Assembly: GCA_000196815.1 (NCBI GenBank)
Contig: FP929003.1
Location: 1,302,001 to 1,366,000 of the forward strand
Direction: 5' to 3'
DNA: 64,000 nucleotides
Source: Nitrospira defluvii
GTDB taxonomy: Bacteria; Nitrospirota; Nitrospiria; Nitrospirales; Nitrospiraceae
How positions within the stretch are numbered: the first letter of the stretch is position 1; the number at the start of each line of letters is the position of its first letter. Position numbers and translations under genes: made by a program. This document shows, piece after piece, positions 7,618-41,437 of the stretch. The notes below the pieces were generated by a model. The model ran no database searches, was not told the DNA's origin, and saw nothing but the letters and a program-made list of their open reading frames with translations.

Positions 7618-7723
7618 TGTCGACGCTGAAGTCGGCACACAGCACCGGGCGAGGTCGTAGCAACCTTGCCGAGCAGGACAACGACGTCCTCTTCCCGAAT
7701 GCGGGATGAGGACGTTTTTTTTT
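7618..7723 (+). promoter_or_regulatory. ANTAR-type antitermination element, distal copy
   Basis: Hairpin 2 has stem AGGAC/GTCCT (7675-7679, 7686-7690) and loop AACGAC, with A1 and G4. Its 3' side overlaps the first arm of the terminator at 7684-7723. A candidate hairpin 1 at 7618-7637 has a 7-bp stem and loop GCTGAA; G4 is kept but position 1 is G instead of A, so this partner is degenerate. The element repeats the logic of the proximal copy within the same leader. Confidence 0.72.
7684..7723 (+). terminator. Intrinsic terminator inside the nirC leader, second
   Basis: Bases 7684-7697 pair with 7702-7715 (one T-T mismatch) around the 4-base loop AATG, followed by a run of nine T from 7715 to 7723. 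It ends 39 bases before the nirC start. Confidence 0.88.
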
Positions 7724-7762
7724 GAGTTGTGCGGACACCATGACCACCGAAAGGAGAGCCTC

Positions 7763-8593
7763 ATGCATACAGCGGATCACGAGCGGATCGCAGGGGTGGC
7801 AGCAAGGAAGTGGTCGTTTTTCGAACGGTCACCGGGCGGATATCTCATCCTCTCGGCTTTGGCCGGGATCTATCTCGGGTTTGGAATTGCGTTGATCTTC
7901 AGTGTGGGGGGACCGTTGGCGGCGGCCGCGTCTCCGGTGGTCAAACTCGTGATGGGGGTGTCGTTCGGGATTGCCTTGACGCTCGTGATCTTCGCGGGGT
8001 CTGAGTTATTCACCGGCAACAACCTCATCGGCACGATCGGTGGTCTGACACGAAGTCTCACCTGGGCGCAAGTCATTCAACTCAATGCCTGGTCCTGGCT
8101 TGGCAATTTGGCAGGTTCGTTGGGGTTGGCCTGGCTCATTGTCCAATCGGGCGTGTTTGCCAAAGGGCCGACGACGGACCTGATCGAGAAAGTGGCGGCG
8201 GTAAAAATGTCGCTGCCTGCCTGGGAGCTGTTCGTGCGGGGCATTCTCTGCAATTGGCTGATCTGTCTGGCGGTCTGGATGACAGGGCGAACGAACAACG
8301 ATACGGCGAAGATTCTCCTGATCTTCTGGTGCCTGTTCGCCTTCATCGGCACCGGGTTCGAGCATAGCATCGCGAATCAATCGTTGCTGGGCATGGCGTT
8401 GTTTCTGCCGCATGACGCGGCTGTGAGTTGGGGGGCCTTTTGGTACAACCAGCTGTTCGTCGTGCTGGGGAACCTGGTGGGCGGCGGGTTGTTTGTCGGG
8501 GGGCTCTATTGGATGGTGAGCCCCTATCGCGTGACGGAAGCGACGGCGGCCCCGGTGGCTCAACCGGTGGTGTCGGCGGTGGCAGGATCGTAA
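7763..8593 (+). CDS. nirC: Formate/nitrite transporter family protein, probable nitrite channel
   Basis: A 276-residue inner-membrane protein of the FNT family with six hydrophobic segments. Family marks are the SGGPLA-like turn (here SVGGPLAAAA), the GSELFTGNN motif near residue 80 and the paired FGIALTLVIFAGSE and GFEHSIANQSLLGMALF pore segments. The start at 7763 is chosen because AAAGGAG (7750-7756) sits at the right distance; a longer reading from 7706 would begin inside the terminator. Position upstream of cynS and nirA makes nitrite or cyanate uptake for assimilation the likely role; formate cannot be excluded from sequence alone. It is the first gene after a leader with two attenuators. 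Confidence 0.9.
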   Translation: MHTADHERIAGVAARKWSFFERSPGGYLILSALAGIYLGFGIALIFSVGGPLAAAASPVVKLVMGVSFGIALTLVIFAGSELFTGNNLIGTIGGLTRSLTWAQVIQLNAWSWLGNLAGSLGLAWLIVQSGVFAKGPTTDLIEKVAAVKMSLPAWELFVRGILCNWLICLAVWMTGRTNNDTAKILLIFWCLFAFIGTGFEHSIANQSLLGMALFLPHDAAVSWGAFWYNQLFVVLGNLVGGGLFVGGLYWMVSPYRVTEATAAPVAQPVVSAVAGS

Positions 8594-8646
8594 TGAAGCG
8601 CGGTGCGGGAGTGTATTCACGGGCGAATCACTAAAGGGAGATCACA

Positions 8647-9087
8647 ATGGAAAAAGCAGCAGTACGCAAGGCGATCAAGGCACAACGGTTGAACAAGAAG
8701 GTCACGATTGCAGAGGTGGCGAAGACGGTCGGGAAGAATCCGACGTTCGTCGCCGCCGCGTTGAACGGGAATCACCGCCTGTCACCGGAGGAAGCGGGCA
8801 AAGTGGGGAAGCTGCTGGATTTGGATAAAGAACAAATCAGCTCCCTGAGTGCATTTCCCGTCCGGGCCGATTTCCCGAATGCGACGGATCCATTTAAGTA
8901 TCGCCTGTTGGAAGTCATCGGTGTGTACGGCGATTCGATGCGGGAGATGGCGAATGAAATGTTCGGCGACGGGATCATGAGCGCCATCGACTTTACGCTG
9001 GATATGGAAAAGGTCACCGGCAGTCAGGGAGAGGCCCGGTGCAAGATCACGTTGAACGGCAAGTGGCTCGAGTACAAAACGTTTTAA
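8647..9087 (+). CDS. cynS: Cyanate hydratase (cyanase)
   Basis: A 146-residue cyanase, which converts cyanate and bicarbonate to ammonia and CO2. The catalytic triad is present as Arg86, Glu89 (YRLLEVIGVYG) and Ser112 (FGDGIMSAIDF), each exactly 10 positions below the E. coli residues Arg96, Glu99 and Ser122, so the active site is fully conserved. The N-terminal half is the usual helix-turn-helix-like domain (residues 1-75). It lies 53 bases after nirC, with its own SD (AAAGGGAG), and before nirA. In Nitrospira cyanase is known to supply ammonium from cyanate; here it is embedded in the nitrite-assimilation operon and would share its leader control. Confidence 0.96.
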   Translation: MEKAAVRKAIKAQRLNKKVTIAEVAKTVGKNPTFVAAALNGNHRLSPEEAGKVGKLLDLDKEQISSLSAFPVRADFPNATDPFKYRLLEVIGVYGDSMREMANEMFGDGIMSAIDFTLDMEKVTGSQGEARCKITLNGKWLEYKTF

Positions 9088-9138
9088 GAAGCACCGGTTC
9101 CTGATGCACGGATGGCGATCAACCGAAAGGAGGACATC

Positions 9139-9333
9139 ATGAGCACGAATGCTGAAACTGCGGTACTGACGGTCCTGGAGCATCAGGCTCCTCAGACATT
9201 CGAGCAACTGATGGCCCTCTCCGGCTTGAGCGCGTCACAGGTGTTGCTGGTCGTGGATCAGTTGAGTCGGGCAGGAGCGGTGGTGTTGAGGAAATCCGGA
9301 CCGGACTATTCCGTCGCATTGGGAGGCACGTGA
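9139..9333 (+). CDS. Small winged-helix-like protein
   Basis: A 64-residue protein. Residues 8-60 (LTVLEHQAPQTFEQLMALSG, then SASQVLLVVDQLSRAGAVVL) have the helix-turn-helix-wing pattern of MarR/IclR-like DNA-binding domains, ending in a short wing (LRKSGPDYSVAL). The ATG at 9139 is chosen over 9112 because AAAGGAGG (9126-9133) precedes it. Its TGA stop overlaps the nirA ATG by one base, so translation of nirA is probably coupled. It might be a local regulator or an accessory factor for nirA; neither is shown. No named family recognised. Confidence 0.7.
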   Translation: MSTNAETAVLTVLEHQAPQTFEQLMALSGLSASQVLLVVDQLSRAGAVVLRKSGPDYSVALGGT

Positions 9334-10928
9334 TGAATAAGATCGAGGTAATCAAGTCTGAGCGGGATGGGTTAACGGTGCGGGACATGATCGCACACTA
9401 TGCGGAAGCCGGATGGGAGGCTATTCCGGAAGACGATATTCAACGGTTGAAGTGGTACGGATTATTTTTGCGAAATCCGACTCCGGGTCACTTCATGTTG
9501 CGGGTACGCCTGCCGGGTGGTCAAACCACGTCGGCTCAACTCGACGCGTTGGCCGACATCGCGCTGCAATACGGCAACGGCGTGGTCGATGTCACCACCA
9601 GACAACAGGTCCAACTCCGGCATCTGACGATTGGCCATGTGCCGTCAGTGTTCAGCAAATTGGAGGAGGCCGGCTTGACGTCGTTGCAAACCGGAATGGA
9701 CACGGTACGGAACATCATGACCTGTCCCGTGGCAGGCCTGAATCCCAACGAGTTGCTCGACGGGACGGACATCGTGCGCGCGATCAATCACGAAGTACTG
9801 GGTAATCCGGCCTATACGAATCTGCCGCGCAAGTGCAATATTGCGGTCACCGGTTGCCCGGACAATTGTCTCCACACGGAGACGCAAGACATCGCGCTGG
9901 TCCCGGCCTATCACGACCTGGGGCATGACAAGTGTTACGGGTACAACGTGCTGGTCGGGGGAAAATTGGGGTCCGGCGGCTACCGCATTGCCGGCTCCCT
10001 GGACATGTTCGTCAATCCGGCGGAAGCCTTCGAGGTCTGCCGGACGCTGCTGCATATCTATCGCGATCATGGACCGCGTGAGAATCGCACCCAAGCGCGC
10101 CTTGCCTTTCTGGTGGAGGCCTGGGGCGAAGCTCGGTTGCGGCACGAAGTCGAACGGCTGGTCGGGAGAACCCTGCCCACGGCGGGGGTGGATGCGAGGG
10201 GAGCGGCGGAGCGCGACCACATCGGCATCTTCCGTCAAAAACAACGGGGCATGAACTATGTCGGGCTGAAGGTGCTGGTCGGCCGGGTGAAGGCGGCTGA
10301 TCTCCGAAGCATCGCCGCGTTGGCGGTTCGGTACGGCAACGGAGAAGTCCGTCTCTCGCCGGCGCAAGCCTTCGTGATCCCTCATATCAACGACCGGCTG
10401 GTGGGTGAACTGGCGGAAGAGCCGCTGGTGAAGCAATTCGCCTACAACCCGTCCGCCCTCTACAAGGGACTGGTCAGTTGTGTGGGAAGCGACTACTGCA
10501 ATCTGGCCGTCATTGAAACCAAAAGCCGGGCCGTCGAAACGGCCCGGGTGCTGGAGCGGAAGCTGGGCGATACCCTCAAGCCGATCACCTTGCATTGGTC
10601 TGGTTGTCCGGCCGGGTGCGGGAACCATCTGGTGGCGGATATCGGACTCTTGGGCAAGAAGGCGAAGGTGGGCGGCAAGGTCGTCGATGCCGTGGATGTG
10701 TTCGTGGGCGGGCGCTCGGGCCCCGATCCCAAGCTCGCCACCAAAATCATGGAGGATGTGCCCTGCGACCGGCTTCCAGCGGTGTTGGAAATGATCATGC
10801 CCTACCACACGCGCGAAAAAATGCATCGCGTACGCGGGAAGGCCGTGCCAAAAGGCACGGGAGCCTCAAAGTCGACGGCATCCGGCAACGAGACGACGGG
10901 GCTCACGCCCCAACCGCTTCCTGCCTAG
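9333..10928 (+). CDS. nirA: Ferredoxin-type assimilatory nitrite reductase
   Basis: A 531-residue siroheme/[4Fe-4S] enzyme of the nitrite/sulfite reductase family that reduces nitrite to ammonium in the cytoplasm. It has two ferredoxin-like halves. The N-terminal half shows VDVTTRQQVQLRHL and RNIMTCPVAGLNPNELLDG, typical of ferredoxin-nitrite reductases. The cluster cysteines are Cys383 and Cys389 (CVGSDYC) and Cys425 and Cys429 (CPAGCGN). The choice of nitrite over sulfite reductase rests on these blocks and on the neighbours nirC and cynS. The start is ATG 9333, which overlaps the preceding stop as TGATG; GGGAGG at 9321-9326 is its SD. The last 25 residues are a low-complexity tail. Confidence 0.94.
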   Translation: MNKIEVIKSERDGLTVRDMIAHYAEAGWEAIPEDDIQRLKWYGLFLRNPTPGHFMLRVRLPGGQTTSAQLDALADIALQYGNGVVDVTTRQQVQLRHLTIGHVPSVFSKLEEAGLTSLQTGMDTVRNIMTCPVAGLNPNELLDGTDIVRAINHEVLGNPAYTNLPRKCNIAVTGCPDNCLHTETQDIALVPAYHDLGHDKCYGYNVLVGGKLGSGGYRIAGSLDMFVNPAEAFEVCRTLLHIYRDHGPRENRTQARLAFLVEAWGEARLRHEVERLVGRTLPTAGVDARGAAERDHIGIFRQKQRGMNYVGLKVLVGRVKAADLRSIAALAVRYGNGEVRLSPAQAFVIPHINDRLVGELAEEPLVKQFAYNPSALYKGLVSCVGSDYCNLAVIETKSRAVETARVLERKLGDTLKPITLHWSGCPAGCGNHLVADIGLLGKKAKVGGKVVDAVDVFVGGRSGPDPKLATKIMEDVPCDRLPAVLEMIMPYHTREKMHRVRGKAVPKGTGASKSTASGNETTGLTPQPLPA

Positions 10929-35547: not shown

Positions 35548-36978
35548 ATGGCCAACGAACTCCCGCTGATTTCTCCCGATAAGTTCCACGACGAATGTGC
35601 CGTGTTCGGTATTTACGGCCATAAAGAAGCCGCGAACCTCGCCTATCTTGGTCTTTACGCGCTGCAACATCGCGGACAGGAAGCTTCCGGCATTGTCTCG
35701 AATGACGGCGAACAGTTCTATGTCGAAAAGGGGCAGGGCCTCGTCGCAGATATTTTTTCGCAACAGGCCTTGGCACGTCTGCCCGGCACGATGGCGATCG
35801 GCCACAACCGCTATTCCACCGCGGGTGGGGCGGGCCTCAAGAATGTGCAGCCCTTGAGCGTCAATTTCGCCTTCGGTAACCTGGCCGTGGCGCACAACGG
35901 GAATTTGATCAATGCCACCATGCTTCGCAGTGAACTGGAAGCCTACGGTGCTATTTTTCAATCGACGTCCGACACGGAAGTCATCATCCATCTCATCGCT
36001 CATTCGCGGGCGGATACGCTGCTGGACCGGGTCATCGATTCGCTCACCCAGGTTCGCGGCGCATTTTCGGTGGTTCTGATGACCGATCAGGGCATTGTCG
36101 CCGCGCGCGATCCCCATGGATTCCGCCCCCTGTGCCTGGGACGGTTTCGTGACGCCTGGATAGTGGCCTCAGAAAGTTGCGCGTTCGATCTGTTGGATGC
36201 CGAATATGTAAGGGAGATCGAACCGGGAGAGCTGGTGGTACTGGATCATCAGGGCGTCACCAGTTATAAGCCATTCGCTCAAACCAAGCCGGCTATGTGT
36301 GTGTTTGAATATGTCTACTTTGCCCGTCCTGATAGCCGCATTTTTGGAGGCAAAGCCGTCTATTCCATCCGGAAGGCATTCGGACGGCAATTGGCGCAAG
36401 AATCACGGGTTGAGGCGGACATCGTGATTCCTGTGCCGGATTCCGGGGTGCCAGCGGCGTTGGGTTACTCGGAAGGGTCGGGGTTTCCTTTTGAAACCGG
36501 ACTGATCCGGAATCATTATGTGGGTCGCACCTTCATCGAGCCGGAGCAGTCAATTCGTCACTTCGGGGTGAAGGTGAAGCTCAATGCCGTTCCCGAAGTG
36601 CTCGAAGGGAAACGCGTCGTCGTCGTAGACGATTCGTTAGTCCGGGGAACGACGAGCCGAAAAATCGTTAAGATGCTGCGTCATGCCGGAGCCAAAGAAG
36701 TGCATATGCGCATTAGTTCTCCGCCGATCGTGTCGCCCTGTTTCTATGGCATCGATACCCCGACCAAGAAGGAATTGATCGCGTCCAGCCACACCACCGA
36801 AGAGATTCGCAAATACATCACCGCTGATAGCCTTGCCTACTTGAGCCTGGACGGCATGGTGAAGGCGGCTCCCGGCTCGCCGGGGCAGTACTGCGATGCC
36901 TGCTTTACCGAACAATATCCCATCTCCTTTACCCGGGCAGAAGAACTCCAACTCGGGCTCTTTGAAGCTCCACGCTGA
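35548..36978 (+). CDS. purF: Amidophosphoribosyltransferase
   Basis: A 476-residue enzyme for the first committed purine step, PRPP plus glutamine to phosphoribosylamine. Cys17 (HDECAVFG) is the N-terminal nucleophile expected after removal of a 16-residue propeptide. The PRPP loop is [20 protein letters not shown]. Four cysteines placed like the B. subtilis Fe-S ligands are present: Cys251 (MCVFEYVYF), Cys398 (CFYGID), Cys449 and Cys452 (CDAC), so this is the [4Fe-4S], oxygen-sensitive class. It begins 12 bases after purL and closes the purine operon. Confidence 0.96.
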
Positions 36979-37045: not shown

Positions 37046-37486
37046 ATGTCGCTGGTCCGGAAATATCGAGTGATCGTTGCCACTGGTGTTGTGGTCGTTG
37101 GGGTCCGCATCGCGTCCCGCTTGACGAGTCTCAGGCGATTGCTCGGCTGGTTATTATGCGAGATGTCAGGTGATCCGGATGAGCGCACGATGGAAGATGT
37201 GGCCTATTACGTGGATCGATGGCTCGCGCTGTTTCCATACAATCTGAAGGGAAATTGTTTCCCCCGAGCGTTAGCGCTGTTCTTTTTCGCCCGCCGTGCC
37301 GGCCTCCCCGTTCAATTCAAATGCGGAGTGATGATGCTCAATCAGCAGCTGGAAGGACACGCATGGCTGGTGCTGGATGGTCATGTGTTTCTTGAGCCGT
37401 CCTCCTACTGGCAATCGTTTACCGTGACGGTCAGCTTCCCCGAATCCCTGGTTTCTTCAAGTACTCGATCTTCTCGCATCTCCTGA
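37046..37486 (+). CDS. Transglutaminase-like protease, lasso-peptide B2 type
   Basis: A 146-residue protein of the transglutaminase-core family found as the B (or B2) leader protease in lasso-peptide loci. Its catalytic residues fit: Cys71 in LKGNCFPRALALFFFARRAG, His105 and Asp111 in EGHAWLVLDGHVFLEP. The N-terminal 30 residues are hydrophobic and basic. The last 20 residues (serine-rich) look non-conserved. It opens a locus that continues with a PqqD-like protein, a tiny precursor, a kinase-like protein and a nucleotidyltransferase. In known systems this enzyme removes the leader peptide after the PqqD-like B1 protein presents it. Confidence 0.8.
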   Translation: MSLVRKYRVIVATGVVVVGVRIASRLTSLRRLLGWLLCEMSGDPDERTMEDVAYYVDRWLALFPYNLKGNCFPRALALFFFARRAGLPVQFKCGVMMLNQQLEGHAWLVLDGHVFLEPSSYWQSFTVTVSFPESLVSSSTRSSRIS

Positions 37487-37810
37487 GACCTTCTCTGCAC
37501 ATGACCGTTCTTTTGCGGTCGGCTGGACCTGGCTGGCCTGGGCGAGTTTTAAAACCCATCAGCTCCCCAGCCGTACGCCCTTTTCATCTGTGTTCCATGA
37601 AAAAAACCGGCTCCCCCCAAAGGGAGGTGGATCCCAATCTCACTGGGAATGGCGAAACGAGCGTGGTGACGATAGTTTCGCCCTTGTGTTGCAGTGATGT
37701 GCACGATTTGCTTGTGGGGAGACCGTGACTTTGCGGAACAATCGGTTGGGGAGCGAATGATGGTATCAGAGCAGTCGCATGTTCTCAGCAATCTGACCAG
37801 GAGTAGCACT
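37487..37810. other. 324-base stretch between the B2-like and PqqD-like genes
   Basis: A possible 75-codon frame at 37501-37728 has no SD and a composition unlike a protein, so it was not called. No second precursor with a YxxPxL leader was found on the plus strand. Two small inverted repeats are present but neither ends in a U-run. Confidence 0.4.
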
Positions 37811-38128
37811 ATGCCTGCCACTGTGCATTTGTGGAGTGAGCGTCATCTCGAATTGTCCGAAGTGTTTCCCAGGCAGGATGAACAGGTCCACAGCACGGTT
37901 CTTGATGGTGAAAGTGTGCTGTTGAATCTGAGCTCCGGCCGTTACTACACGCTCAATGTCGTCGGATCAACCATCTGGGATTTGTGCAGAGGGGAGCAGT
38001 CGCTACGGCAGATTCACTCAACAATCTGTGCCAGGTTTGACGTGCCTGAACAGCAGGCTCAGGACGATATGTTGGAGTTGATGGTGCTTTTGGAGCAGGA
38101 AGGATTACTTCACACAGAAAGGAGGTGA
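37811..38128 (+). CDS. PqqD-like RiPP recognition protein (lasso B1 type)
   Basis: A 105-residue PqqD-family protein. SVLLNLSSGRYYTLNVVGST IWDL is the typical beta-sheet and helix of the RiPP recognition element, and SLRQIHSTICARFDVPEQQA plus MLELMVLLEQEGLL form the following helices. Such proteins bind the leader peptide of a precursor. The start at 37811 is preceded by AGGAG; an upstream ATG pair at 37757-37762 (MMVSEQS) has a GGGGAG and is an alternative giving a longer N-terminus. The next gene encodes a peptide with the matching leader motif, only 6 bases downstream. Confidence 0.82.
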   Translation: MPATVHLWSERHLELSEVFPRQDEQVHSTVLDGESVLLNLSSGRYYTLNVVGSTIWDLCRGEQSLRQIHSTICARFDVPEQQAQDDMLELMVLLEQEGLLHTERR

Positions 38129-38134
38129 GGGAGA

Positions 38135-38248
38135 ATGGAGCGACAGATAAAACCCGAATACGTCAAGCCTGCGCTCGTGAAACACGAGTTGCTGCGCGAC
38201 GTGACGGCCATTCAGTTGTCCCGCGTGCTGGATCGAACACCCGCATAA
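38135..38248 (+). CDS. Candidate lasso-type RiPP precursor peptide
   Basis: A 37-residue peptide (MERQIKPEYVKPALVKHELL, then RDVTAIQLSRVLDRTPA). Tyr9-x-x-Pro12-x-Leu14 is the YxxPxL motif that PqqD-like B1 proteins recognise in lasso leaders, and the Val-Thr-Ala at 23-25 fits the conserved threonine at position -2 of such leaders. The excellent SD AAAGGAGGTGA, the position directly after the PqqD-like gene and a strong stem-loop after the stop (38277-38307) support expression. Cleavage after Ala25 would leave IQLSRVLDRTPA with Asp at position 8, a ring acceptor position, but the core is short and does not begin with glycine. A decayed core is equally possible. Confidence 0.7.
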   Translation: MERQIKPEYVKPALVKHELLRDVTAIQLSRVLDRTPA

Positions 38249-38276
38249 CATGTCAGGCGCTCCTGTGAGAGTCATG

Positions 38277-38307
38277 GAGCTGGCCGGTTAAGTAGACCGG
38301 CCAGCTC
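38277..38307 (+). other. 12-bp perfect stem-loop after the precursor gene
   Basis: GAGCTGGCCGGT (38277-38288) pairs fully with ACCGGCCAGCTC (38296-38307) around a 7-base loop. No U-run follows. Stem-loops behind precursor genes commonly stabilise the precursor mRNA or cause partial termination before the enzyme genes, and that is the likely use here. Confidence 0.65.
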
Positions 38308-38362
38308 ACCCTATACCTGTATGGTAGTGACGACAGGCAGAAGGTTGAAAGGAGAAGCGGCA

Positions 38363-39403
38363 ATGTTCATGGCGTCGTCACTTAAGGAACTTCTACTCTC
38401 CGTCCATGGCATAGAGATGAAATTCACCACCAATTCGTCCGAGTTGGCCCATTCCGTTGAGGTGTTACTCCATCACTTTCAGCGCGATACCGTTGCGGCT
38501 CAGCCGATGCGGATGGAGTTTGATGCGATCGAACGGCGCGGAGATGTTCCGGTCCGGCTTCCCGGTGCAGCGAAGTTGTTGTATGGCGGCTCTGGCCTCG
38601 CAATCGGTCCTGATCGGGAGACAACATGGGCCTGCGACATATATTCAGACAACGACCTATTGATTGCCGATTTTCATGGAGAAGGCTTGGTCGTCATCGA
38701 GGGGGCCTCGCAATCTGCCCATGGCTATCTGGTGAGGCCGGAGGCAATGGCGCCGGATATTCGTGTGAGTTTTGTCCATTTCGCCATGACGGAACTTCTG
38801 AAACGGCGTGGAGTGTATACGTTTCATGCCACCGCCCTGGAGCATAAGGGGCAGGGGGTGCTCATACCTGGTTTCAGTGGGCGGGGGAAGACCACCACCT
38901 TCCTATCCCTGCTGCGAGCAGGGTATCGTTACCTCTCTGACGATCACCCGTTCTTTCGGGTCAGCGGCACGCGTGTGGAAATCCTCCCGTATCCGCTCAA
39001 GATCAATGTGACCGATCACACCGTATCGTTCTTTCCCGAACTGCGAGAGGCCCCGCCATCTCTGCTTCGTGCAGGTGTCCCCAAGCGCTATTTCCATGCT
39101 GAGGATATATATCCGGGGCCATTAGGCCAACCTTGCGAGCCAAGCGTGATTCTCTTTCCAGAGGTGGTCAATTCCTCGCACAGTTGCCTGGAGCCCTTGT
39201 CCAAGAAGGTGGCATTGGAAATGATCCTTCCGCATTCGTTGCTCGTGTATGACACGGAGGTGGCGCGCCGGGAGTTTCAAGCACTTGTTCGTCTGGTCGA
39301 GCAAACGGACTGTTATCGACTCCACTTCGGACGCGATGTACTGGAGTTGCCGTGGCTGGTAACGCCTCTTTTGGAGAAGCGGCAAGCAAGGAGAGAGAAC
39401 TGA
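38363..39403 (+). CDS. HPr kinase-like protein of the RiPP locus
   Basis: A 346-residue protein with an HPr kinase/phosphorylase-like C-terminal half. The P-loop is IPGFSGRGKTTTFLSLLRAG (near 168-187) and the following YLSDDHPFFRV has the paired acidic residues of HPr kinase. His155 (VYTFHATALE) precedes the P-loop as in the family. The start at 38363 is chosen from AAAGGAG (38348-38354); a reading from 38321 would run through the region without SD. Homologues occur in lasso-peptide loci, where one type phosphorylates the precursor at its C-terminus. Target here is unknown; the precursor has Ser29 and Thr35 that could be acceptors. Confidence 0.75.
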   Translation: MFMASSLKELLLSVHGIEMKFTTNSSELAHSVEVLLHHFQRDTVAAQPMRMEFDAIERRGDVPVRLPGAAKLLYGGSGLAIGPDRETTWACDIYSDNDLLIADFHGEGLVVIEGASQSAHGYLVRPEAMAPDIRVSFVHFAMTELLKRRGVYTFHATALEHKGQGVLIPGFSGRGKTTTFLSLLRAGYRYLSDDHPFFRVSGTRVEILPYPLKINVTDHTVSFFPELREAPPSLLRAGVPKRYFHAEDIYPGPLGQPCEPSVILFPEVVNSSHSCLEPLSKKVALEMILPHSLLVYDTEVARREFQALVRLVEQTDCYRLHFGRDVLELPWLVTPLLEKRQARREN

Positions 39404-39404
39404 C

Positions 39405-40700
39405 ATGGGACAGCGTCCTAGGTCCACCGTCGCACAATGGAACTCTTCTGGTCTGGGAGGTATTTCTCGAAAGGGGATGACGCCGGCGCCAGGTTCGGCC
39501 CTCATGCATGCGGAGGGACGATTACTTGCACTCTGTGCGCGAACGACGGTGAATGAGTTTATTCGAGTCGAAGTAGCAGATCTGGCCTGTGATGGAATTG
39601 ACTGGGAGCTGGTGTGGAAGCTGTCCAGAACCCATGGTGTGGCGCCGCTGGTGTATCGCAATCTGGTCACGATTTGTCCGGCTGCCCTACCTTCTTCCAT
39701 TCACGAATCTTTTCGTCGACATAATCAAGCGAACGCTCTTTTGAATAGCTTGTTGGCTAAAGAACTCGTGACCTTACTGGAGGCGTTGGCGGCAAAGGGG
39801 GTAACGGCGATTCCCTTTAAAGGCGTCACTCTTGCACAGACGGCGTATGGCGATCTAGGTTTACGGGAATGTGCGGATATTGATTTGATTGTTGAGCAAG
39901 GAGCGATTCCTCAAGCTCGGAAAGTCTTATGGTCTCAGGGGTATCAACTGACCAGCCAGGACATGGGGGGCGGGGACGAGTCAGGGGAGCCGTACCACTT
40001 TTTCCAGAGGCGAAACGGCATTGTTGCGGTCGATCTTCAGTGGATGATGGCTCGCCGGCATTTCGGATTCCGCCTTGATCGGAGCGTGTTTTGGGGAAGA
40101 CTGAAACCTGTTCACTTACCAACAAAATCGGTGATGGGCCTCTGCCCTGAGGATCTGTTGATTCTTCTTTGTGTGCATGGGTCAAAACATGCCTGGGAGC
40201 AGTTGAAGTGGGTCTGCGATGTGGCGGAGCTCGTGCGTCGGCGGCCGGCGTTAGATTGGAGTCGTGTGCTGTTTCAGGCGAGCGAGTGGAGATGTCGACG
40301 GTTCGTCCTGCTCGGCCTGGCGATGGCTCACAGCCTGTTCGATACCGCCGTCCCACGGACGATACTTCAGGAGATAGAAGCAGATGCAGACATCCCCATC
40401 CTCGTTCGAAAGATGCCTAAGCAACTGCTGAAGAATCCTCGTCATGGGATTGATGAAGATTCTGCAGACGCTCTATACATGACTCTCAAAGATTCCTGGT
40501 TTGAGCGGTGGAGACTGGGGGTCGCGTTTTGTCGTTCGGAAGCAGAGGTGCTCACCCGTTCGTTGCCCTGGTTCCGGTTTCAACGACGACTTCGTATGCT
40601 GGCCATTTGTTTGAAACCGTTTCATCGGATTGTCGCTAAATGCCTTTTTTCTGTCCGGATGCGTGAAGCAGTCGTGCGATGGTTGCAGAGCTCCGGCTGA
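39405..40700 (+). CDS. Nucleotidyltransferase-family protein of the RiPP locus
   Basis: A 431-residue protein of the uncharacterised nucleotidyltransferase family (Pfam NTP_transf_5 type) often found with lasso-peptide and PqqD genes. The metal site is LRECADIDLIVEQ with Asp158 and Asp160, preceded by IPFKGVTLAQTAYGDLGLRE. AVDLQWMMARRHFGF would supply a third acid. VHGSKHAWEQLKWVCDVAEL is a further family block. It starts 1 base after the kinase-like gene's stop, so the two are co-translated units of one operon. In related loci a nucleotidyltransferase is thought to act on the kinase product, but its reaction is not settled. Confidence 0.75.
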   Translation: MGQRPRSTVAQWNSSGLGGISRKGMTPAPGSALMHAEGRLLALCARTTVNEFIRVEVADLACDGIDWELVWKLSRTHGVAPLVYRNLVTICPAALPSSIHESFRRHNQANALLNSLLAKELVTLLEALAAKGVTAIPFKGVTLAQTAYGDLGLRECADIDLIVEQGAIPQARKVLWSQGYQLTSQDMGGGDESGEPYHFFQRRNGIVAVDLQWMMARRHFGFRLDRSVFWGRLKPVHLPTKSVMGLCPEDLLILLCVHGSKHAWEQLKWVCDVAELVRRRPALDWSRVLFQASEWRCRRFVLLGLAMAHSLFDTAVPRTILQEIEADADIPILVRKMPKQLLKNPRHGIDEDSADALYMTLKDSWFERWRLGVAFCRSEAEVLTRSLPWFRFQRRLRMLAICLKPFHRIVAKCLFSVRMREAVVRWLQSSG

Positions 40701-40891: not shown

Positions 40892-41437
40892 ATGAAGCGA
40901 GTTCTCATAGCGGTTGCGATTGTATTGGTGCATCTGTGGGCTGTTCACCATGTAGTCGCCGCCGGATTTTTTAAAGTCGGAGAGCCGGCGCCGGCCTTCT
41001 CGTTGACGTCCGTAACAGGCGATGCGGTTTCGCTTGAGCAGTTAAAGGGGAAGGTGGTTGTCCTCGGGCTGTTTCATATTTGTGACCCCTGCATGACCCA
41101 AGGGACCAATCTGCAAAAGGTCCACGAGGCGATGGCCGGGAAAAATGTGGCCGTCGTCGGAGTCAATTCGTCGGGGGATTCCAAACGGGGCGTAGGCGAA
41201 TTCTTGAGTGCCTTTCCCGTGAAGGTCACCTACCCCTATTTGCTCGATCCGAATAAGACCACCGACAAACTGTATGGAGGTGGGAAATTCATTCCCAATG
41301 TGTATGTCATCGATCAGCGTGGTGTGATCAGGTGGCAGCGGGTGGGCAATATGGAATTGGCAGGTGCCGAGGTCATCATCCAGGAAGTGGAAAAGCTGTT
41401 GACAGCTGCGACTCCAGCCGGCGCAGGAGCCATGTAG
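40892..41437 (+). CDS. Exported thioredoxin-like protein (TlpA/ResA type)
   Basis: A 181-residue thiol protein. The start at 40892 follows AAGGAGG and yields a signal peptide or anchor (VLIAVAIVLVHLWAVHHVVA). The fold opens with KVGEPAPAFSLTSVTGDAVS LEQLKGKVVVL as in AhpC/TSA-TlpA proteins; the active site is ICDPCMTQG (CxxC as Cys-Asp-Pro-Cys). NVYVIDQRGVIRWQRVG is the cis-proline region with the conserved V-x-D-x-x-G pattern. Periplasmic disulfide reduction or cytochrome c maturation is the family role. The following genes to 43582 are close and probably co-transcribed. Confidence 0.85.
   Translation: MKRVLIAVAIVLVHLWAVHHVVAAGFFKVGEPAPAFSLTSVTGDAVSLEQLKGKVVVLGLFHICDPCMTQGTNLQKVHEAMAGKNVAVVGVNSSGDSKRGVGEFLSAFPVKVTYPYLLDPNKTTDKLYGGGKFIPNVYVIDQRGVIRWQRVGNMELAGAEVIIQEVEKLLTAATPAGAGAM

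Follow-up and report, generated by a model that had tools for sequence, protein, structure and literature searches.

The described systems that most resemble the locus reported here are bsf of Bradymonas, paeninodin and pseudomycoidin, lasso peptide pathways with K and N genes that, in the available parts of the published accounts, have a precursor with a YxxPxL leader motif, a discrete B1 recognition protein, a B2 leader peptidase and a homologue of HPr kinase; in bsf and pseudomycoidin a nucleotidyltransferase gene is present as well (PMC10368454; PMC9266682; PMC8498205). As far as those texts go, the Bradymonas kinase BsfK phosphorylates Ser3 of the core peptide with the aid of B1 (PMC10368454), a His-Lys-Asp-Asp motif matters in lasso kinases (PMC9266682), and the pseudomycoidin N enzyme leads to hexoses on phosphoserine by an unsettled route (PMC9266682; PMC8498205); the accessible part of the bsf report gives no known function for BsfN (PMC10368454). 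We have analysed a locus of similar anatomy in the genus Nitrospira, contained in a 64 kb stretch of DNA (the window) that corresponds to positions 1302001–1366000 of a one-contig genome (4,317,083 bases, 99.97 % complete). An initial annotation had proposed that genes for B2, a PqqD-type protein, a 37-residue precursor with a YxxPxL leader, an HPr-kinase-like protein and a nucleotidyltransferase follow one another here. All five were found where it had placed them and their families matched, the full order on the plus strand being purF, B2, pqqD, precursor, HPr-kinase-like gene (hprK), PF14907 nucleotidyltransferase and a TlpA-like gene; the lasso-type anatomy was likewise borne out, with B2, the PqqD-type protein and the leader all recognizable. 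Unlike bsf, paeninodin and pseudomycoidin, however, the locus has no cyclase C, no conserved ring acceptor and, in the window's genus, no transporter or exporter gene.

We lean towards the interpretation that this is a lasso-derived, cyclase-free pathway for a ribosomally synthesized and post-translationally modified peptide (RiPP), whose product would be linear, serine-phosphorylated and further tailored. Since no cyclase is present here and most relatives of the B2 protein also lack an adjoining one, the product is probably a different kind of modified peptide from a lasso. The family of asparagine-synthetase-like proteins, PF00733, has no match in the 64 kb window, in keeping with the absence noted by the initial annotation, and no macrolactam cyclase was found in the window's locus or in the loci fetched from its genus and sister genera. 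Local deletion of a linked cyclase in this strain alone, an explanation that annotation had allowed for, is ruled out because the same cyclase-less order recurs across the genus and in sister genera.

Matches to the B2 family PF13471 above its cut-off were present in 79 of the 395 Nitrospirota genomes, and loci were obtained for 61 B2 proteins. A scan of 82 loci (L041–L068, L105–L138 and L168–L187; several in the cyclase-linkage count are short, the smallest contig measuring 3.7 kb) with a profile built from the four asparagine synthases of the window's own genome detected a cyclase in 11 (L168, L169, L171–L175, L178, L179, L182 and L185), the remaining matches being PurF only. In a tree of the 61 B2 proteins, the 11 cyclase-linked members and L170 were separated from 49 without a cyclase (support 95, starred). 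A scan of named genomes with a nucleotidyltransferase profile, from which the best 80 of 177 relatives were kept, gave a B2 in 15 of those 80: eight with a cyclase, six without (L188, whose contig equals that of L184 in length, and L189, L190, L207, L216 and L244) and, in addition, a Nitrospira NOB1 locus (L247) whose sole cyclase-profile match is PurF by length, start and place. When 13 of these new proteins were added (L188 and L247 were left out), the resulting tree of 74 B2s placed all 19 cyclase-linked proteins on one side, together with L170, L207 and L216, and 52 proteins, including that of the window, on the other, for which the fetched DNA contained no cyclase (support 94, not starred). 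The window's B2 lineage is largely separate, in other words, from the one that accompanies cyclases. Its 52 members belong to Nitrospirota and Planctomycetota (Scalindua, Brocadia), with one Verrucomicrobia protein on a very long branch, and the cyclase-free side perhaps reaches Verrucomicrobiota; the precursor of the Scalindua locus ends in ...KLTKHGDATKITAGFFGSFTP. Cyclase-linked lasso loci of Nitrospirota resemble the window's locus in having B2, and some also have pqqD, hprK or the nucleotidyltransferase, but they differ in the presence of the cyclase, in a leader containing ..YG.. in the eight precursors read and in an Asp or Glu at core positions 7–9 in seven of those eight. Many of the best 80 loci have pqqD, hprK or the nucleotidyltransferase without any B2, which indicates that the kinase/nucleotidyltransferase module has other settings too.

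The window's B2 is the single PF13471 protein of its genome. Cys71 and His105, which the initial annotation had assigned to a catalytic triad, are invariant with Trp107 across all 61 aligned B2 proteins; its third member, Asp111, is replaced by E, H or N in near relatives, and we have discarded it as unsupported. Searching by sequence found no solved structure for B2 or for the nucleotidyltransferase, and identified TbiB1 as the nearest one for the PqqD-type protein. A second PqqD-like domain occurs elsewhere in the same genome, within a 715-residue frame (L073 6365–8512, G000:C1:2668218 region) whose neighbours look HlyD-like by eye.

The precursor reads MERQIKPEYVKPALVKHELLRDVTAIQLSRVLDRTPA and is preceded by the ribosome site AGGAGGTGAG. 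Intact precursors number 24 copies in 19 of 29 genomes of the genus, five of which have two tandem copies; the gene is broken or absent in eight, and in two the contig ends there so that it could not be judged. Over the 24 copies the ratio of nonsynonymous to synonymous polymorphism (pN/pS) is 0.44 for the N-terminus, 0.09 for the leader segment Y9–A25, 0.20 for I26–R30 and 0.79 for the tail. Because of the ribosome site, the intact copies and the leader constraint, we regard the precursor as a real gene; a chance small ORF is ruled out by the copies across the genus, the leader constraint and the matches to a precursor profile, which at E ≤ 0.01 came from 51 genomes among the 395 of Nitrospirota (49 belong to the same family). 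Nor does the case of an unconserved precursor, which the initial annotation had held open, apply. In the 23 distinct precursors of the genus, Y9, P12 and T24 are invariant and L14 nearly so, so that the YxxPxL motif and a threonine at −2 of the lasso type are both present. With T24 at −2, the positions of Y9, P12 and L14 become −17, −14 and −12, which is the register of the BsfA leader motif (−17 to −12) in the available part of the Bradymonas report; the residue at −2 differs, being Ile in bsf (PMC10368454). The predicted released core of the window peptide is about 12 residues long (IQLSRVLDRTPA). Its fourth residue, Ser29, is kept in all 23 distinct peptides, 21 of which have Ile at position 1; Bradymonas bsf, with its phosphorylated Ser3, likewise has the serine close to the start of the core (PMC10368454).

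Comparison with other Nitrospira, which the initial annotation had recommended, showed the cyclase-less order to be conserved. Of the 27 assessable genomes, 19 have precursor and B2 both intact; both are lost or broken in the other eight, where B2 is absent, carries stops or (in G014) lacks the catalytic Cys and the HAW part; in the two genomes that could not be judged for the precursor, B2 carries stops in one (G008) and gave no match in the other (G019). In the 28 relatives of the genus, TlpA and metallo-β-lactamase (MBL) genes border the locus on one side and, in every case where the contig extends far enough, purL–purF borders it on the other. The ratio of nonsynonymous to synonymous substitutions (dN/dS) among six close genomes is 0.25 for B2, 0.18 for pqqD, 0.34 for the precursor, 0.19 for hprK and 0.18 for the nucleotidyltransferase, against 0.03 for purF. 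In one genome that has lost the precursor (G006, L068 7592–8628), two overlapping frames that by eye resemble an IS (insertion sequence) transposase lie between purF and pqqD.

Larger loci occupy the same place, with purF on the left and TlpA/MBL on the right, in three sister genera (labelled g2, g4 and g7), and a fourth (g14) has the right border in common. The g4 locus L114 has the order purL–purF–B2–ABC–ATP-grasp–ATP-grasp–pqqD–precursors–hprK–fatty-acid hydroxylase–nucleotidyltransferase–TlpA–MBL; the g7 loci L123 and L135 follow it apart from one or two genes that were not recognized, and in g2 a separate unit, pqqD–precursor–hprK–nucleotidyltransferase–B2–ABC, stands first. Family assignments are ABC_tran (7.4e-33), RimK ATP-grasp (3.3e-6) and FA_hydroxylase (8.2e-25), and none of the larger loci fetched contains a cyclase. 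The locus of the window's genus looks as if it were the larger locus minus the ABC, ATP-grasp and hydroxylase genes. It could accordingly be read as the decaying remnant of a larger RiPP cluster that has lost exporter, ATP-grasp and hydroxylase and whose product is useless, a reading favoured by the collinear loci of g4 and g7, by the loss or breakage in eight of 27 genomes and by the nearly neutral tail. We consider it improbable, because the leader is under strong constraint over its 24 copies, Ser29 is invariant, five genomes keep tandem precursors and dN/dS lies between 0.18 and 0.25 for B2, pqqD and hprK among close relatives.

PqqA is a peptide scaffold from which pyrroloquinoline quinone is made, and the drop in constraint after Arg30 (from 0.20 to 0.79), together with a partner from the PqqD family, would fit a similar fate here, in which the AIQLSR region gives rise to a cofactor-like small molecule and the tail is discarded. 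This, too, seems to us unlikely, as sister cores behind a similar leader are quite different and often longer, and a family scan of the four partner genes found no match to a radical-SAM or oxidase family.

The sister genera supplied 68 peptides, 67 of them distinct, when 36 loci were scanned with a loose leader pattern. Their leaders are alike (Y..P....H.LRD[IV]T) and of two kinds. Those ending in T-A mostly precede xxSG cores, which are Cys-containing, Gly-rich or, in 10, of the form NNGxGNGxxDGVPGxS (10 of 67 peptides behind the same leader; L117, L119, L129–L131, L133, L134 and L136–L138), and those ending in T-G adjoin hydroxylase genes and precede KYxE or GxSxVK cores. Ser3 is present in 52 of the 67, and all 15 others carry the KYxE motif. 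A ring acceptor, defined as Asp or Glu at core positions 7–9 (sister cores being counted from the second residue after the leader-end Thr), is found in 10 of 23 distinct peptides of the genus, including the window's with its Asp at core 8, and in 28 of 67 sister peptides, against seven of the eight control precursors that could be read from the 11 cyclase-linked loci; on these counts a ring acceptor is frequent but not conserved. At core position 8, other members of the genus also have N, T, Y, G, Q, R, K or A.

A search for asparagine-synthetase-like genes outside the window, likewise suggested at the outset, gave seven PF00733 matches in the genome, four strong (244–413 bits) and three weak (20.6–30.5 bits), one of the weak ones beginning 494 bases past the window's end. 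The four strong proteins start with MCG, presumably the start of a class II glutaminase, and their neighbours, judged by eye, are glycan-synthesis-like. On the NCBI lasso-cyclase model NF033535 they reach 185–332 bits, and models for XrtA-type amidotransferase or asparagine synthase give them higher scores, whereas three B2-linked cyclases of other Nitrospirota reach 494–521 bits, just below the cut-off of 525; the four thus look like amidotransferases of glycan loci. The PF00733 matches listed for other genomes reach down to about 228 bits, and weaker cyclases outside the fetched loci are possible there. That an unlinked protein of this type closes a lasso ring between Ile26 and Asp33 in trans is the most doubtful of the alternatives, since, for all that the genome holds four strong candidates, that another genome (G301) contains one cyclase-linked and one cyclase-less locus and that core position 8 of the window peptide is Asp, the four candidates have the start, surroundings and scores just described and core position 8 varies within the genus beside a position 1 that is Ile in 21 of 23.

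The kinase and the nucleotidyltransferase remain as the likely source of the modification. Kinase residues H169, K190, D207 and D208 (numbered from the start of the open frame at 38321) are invariant in 59 of 59 sequences and correspond to the motif of lasso kinases. By sequence the protein reaches 55.5 bits on HprK_rel_A (cut-off 200) and 6.7e-4 against HPr kinase 1ko7. Its AlphaFold model (mean predicted local distance difference test score, pLDDT, 88.6) matches phosphoenolpyruvate carboxykinase (PEPCK) 1j3b with Z 15.4 and a root-mean-square deviation (rmsd) of 4.4 over 278 residues, and 1ko7 with Z 14.0 and rmsd 2.6 over 138 residues. A kinase tree contains three clades, each with support 100, namely the window's genus (20 sequences), a hydroxylase-linked unit (9) and a unit followed by the nucleotidyltransferase (24), with six sequences outside them. 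These clades match the leader/core sets (T-A with IQLSR, T-G with KYxE or GxSxVK, and T-A with xxSG, respectively), and this suggests coevolution of the kinase with its substrate.

The window's nucleotidyltransferase carries the KG...DxD motif, which is kept in 25 of the 29 genomes of the genus. Its model (pLDDT 86.7) matches MenT1 (Z 15.0, rmsd 3.2, 176 residues) and ANT(2'') 4xje (Z 14.4, rmsd 3.5, 164 residues), a fold from which the group transferred cannot be deduced; ranked lower is FKRP 6kal (Z 9.3, rmsd 3.6, 148 residues), which we take to be a phosphosugar transferase. The gene is an open frame in all 29 genomes, so that strict dependence on the peptide is unsupported. It is still open in five genomes that lack precursor, B2 and hprK (the precursor-less genomes that retain it include loci L063, L065, L067 and L068), with dN/dS of 0.195 versus 0.182, and it may therefore have another role. 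Four of these five have an altered KG or DxD (H or R in place of K, E in place of D), and in the fifth the motif is unchanged; the motif is kept in the 19 genomes with an intact precursor, in the two that could not be judged and in three others with a broken or missing precursor. Since the motif is intact wherever the peptide is present, and changed in four and kept in four of the eight genomes without an intact precursor, it is suggestive, and no more, that catalysis serves the peptide and that the protein is kept for some other reason. A second relative of this family (33 % identity) occurs in G011 (L074, G011:C6:190000–206000, approximately 7674–10736), adjoining two frames, one of 115 residues that carries an RR-type signal sequence and one of 409 residues with a PqqD-like start, both judged by eye. 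A sister locus (L105 1500–2756, minus strand) also has a second nucleotidyltransferase, maybe a non-catalytic copy, as DxD is absent from it in the alignment.

The features of the locus are collected in Table 1. For PqqD and the kinase, the most likely starts (a ribosome site judged by eye, and the start of homology) lie within longer open frames, which begin at 37694 and 38321, respectively.

Table 1. Features of the Nitrospira locus and its borders, in window positions
Feature	Positions	Strand	Evidence or remarks
purF, conserved left border, outside the pathway	35548..36978	+	
B2 leader peptidase (transglutaminase-like), 146 aa	37046..37486	+	PF13471 2.4e-22; NF033537 (NCBI lasso B2) 50.7 bits, cut-off 33; alignment; trees
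Gap of 324 bases, B2 to pqqD	37487..37810	+	Same-place g4/g7 loci have ATP-grasp and mostly also ABC transporter genes here
PqqD-type recognition protein (B1/RRE, RiPP recognition element), 105 aa	37811..38128	+	PF05402 2.1e-17; TbiB1 5v1u 2.5e-8
Precursor peptide, 37 aa; leader Y9–A25 (YVKPAL, T24 at −2), predicted core from I26, invariant Ser29	38135..38248	+	
HPr-kinase-like protein, 346 aa from likely start	38363..39403	+	Motif; AlphaFold model; PEPCK/HPrK fold
PF14907 nucleotidyltransferase, 431 aa, KG...DxD motif	39405..40700	+	PF14907 1.1e-69; motif; model fold
AhpC/TSA (TlpA-like) protein, conserved right border, outside the pathway	40892..41437	+	

Our current working hypothesis, in which each enzymatic step and the cut site are drawn by analogy from Bradymonas BsfK, B1 and B2, from paeninodin and from pseudomycoidin, is that the pathway is built from the first half of a lasso pathway. 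PqqD would bind the YxxPxL leader and present the peptide, the HprK-like kinase would phosphorylate Ser29, and the PF14907 enzyme would add a nucleotidyl or a phosphosugar/hexose group onto the Ser29 phosphate. B2 together with PqqD would then cut after Ala25 and set free a linear, modified product some 12 residues long, and no ring would be made because no cyclase accompanies this lineage. As to its role, a short signal or interaction peptide is our best guess. Several observations weigh against this hypothesis. The system is lost or broken in eight of 27 assessable genomes, the core tail is nearly unconstrained, and the nucleotidyltransferase stays open and similarly constrained where the precursor is missing. 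Furthermore, neither position 3 nor position 4 is Ser in 15 of the 67 sister peptides even though a kinase accompanies most of them, the frequent Asp or Glu at core 7–9 weakens the contrast with the cyclase-linked precursors, and L170, L207 and L216 lack a cyclase on the cyclase side of the B2 tree.

A broader proposal, for which we judge the chances to be evenly balanced, is that PqqD and the distinct B2 branch, with the kinase and the PF14907 transferase and without a cyclase, constitute a separate RiPP class in Nitrospirota, Planctomycetota and perhaps Verrucomicrobiota, in which similar leaders feed several unrelated cores, kinase clades follow the leader/core sets, and one sister set is also served by ATP-grasp proteins. 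In the available part of the RRE-Finder report, about 4,000 of almost 8,000 discrete proteins of the lasso RRE model co-occur with peptidase and cyclase, and its authors suggest that remaining RRE proteins could belong to uncharacterized RiPP classes (PMC7470986); the locus described here differs from RREs without peptidase and cyclase in retaining the peptidase and lacking the cyclase alone. In the open-licence PMC literature, as far as its texts were accessible, we found no description of a locus with B2, kinase and nucleotidyltransferase but no cyclase, or of one in Nitrospira, and, at the level of titles, no paper on lasso-type products in Nitrospira or nitrite oxidizers.

The ATP-grasp pair of the sister loci (L105 7512–9327, minus strand; L114 5569–7384) lies beside KYxE or GxSxVK precursors with lasso-type leaders. 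Against the model for ATP-grasp ribosomal peptide maturases, TIGR04187, the two proteins score 124 and 52 bits, short of the 350 set as its cut-off. Pairing at the same place recalls the graspetide maturases (GRASP_SAV_5884, MvdC/MvdD), but here the pair accompanies a lasso-type leader, PqqD and B2, and no ATP-grasp maturase, the mark of graspetides, is found among the five window genes or elsewhere in the locus of the window's genus. A hybrid of graspetide and lasso-type processing is possible, in which case graspetide chemistry and the processing of a lasso-type leader would be naturally combined in the sister set.

The presence of B2 and PqqD is commonly taken to indicate a lasso peptide. 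If the cyclase-free B2 branch is what we suppose, mining rules based on these two proteins would overlook a group of pathways or label it wrongly, and the branch itself would offer a sequence-based way of separating cyclase-free from lasso pathways. The carriers are nitrite oxidizers and anammox bacteria. Their kinase and PF14907 transferase, which serve as tailoring extras in lasso pathways, may here carry out the main chemistry.

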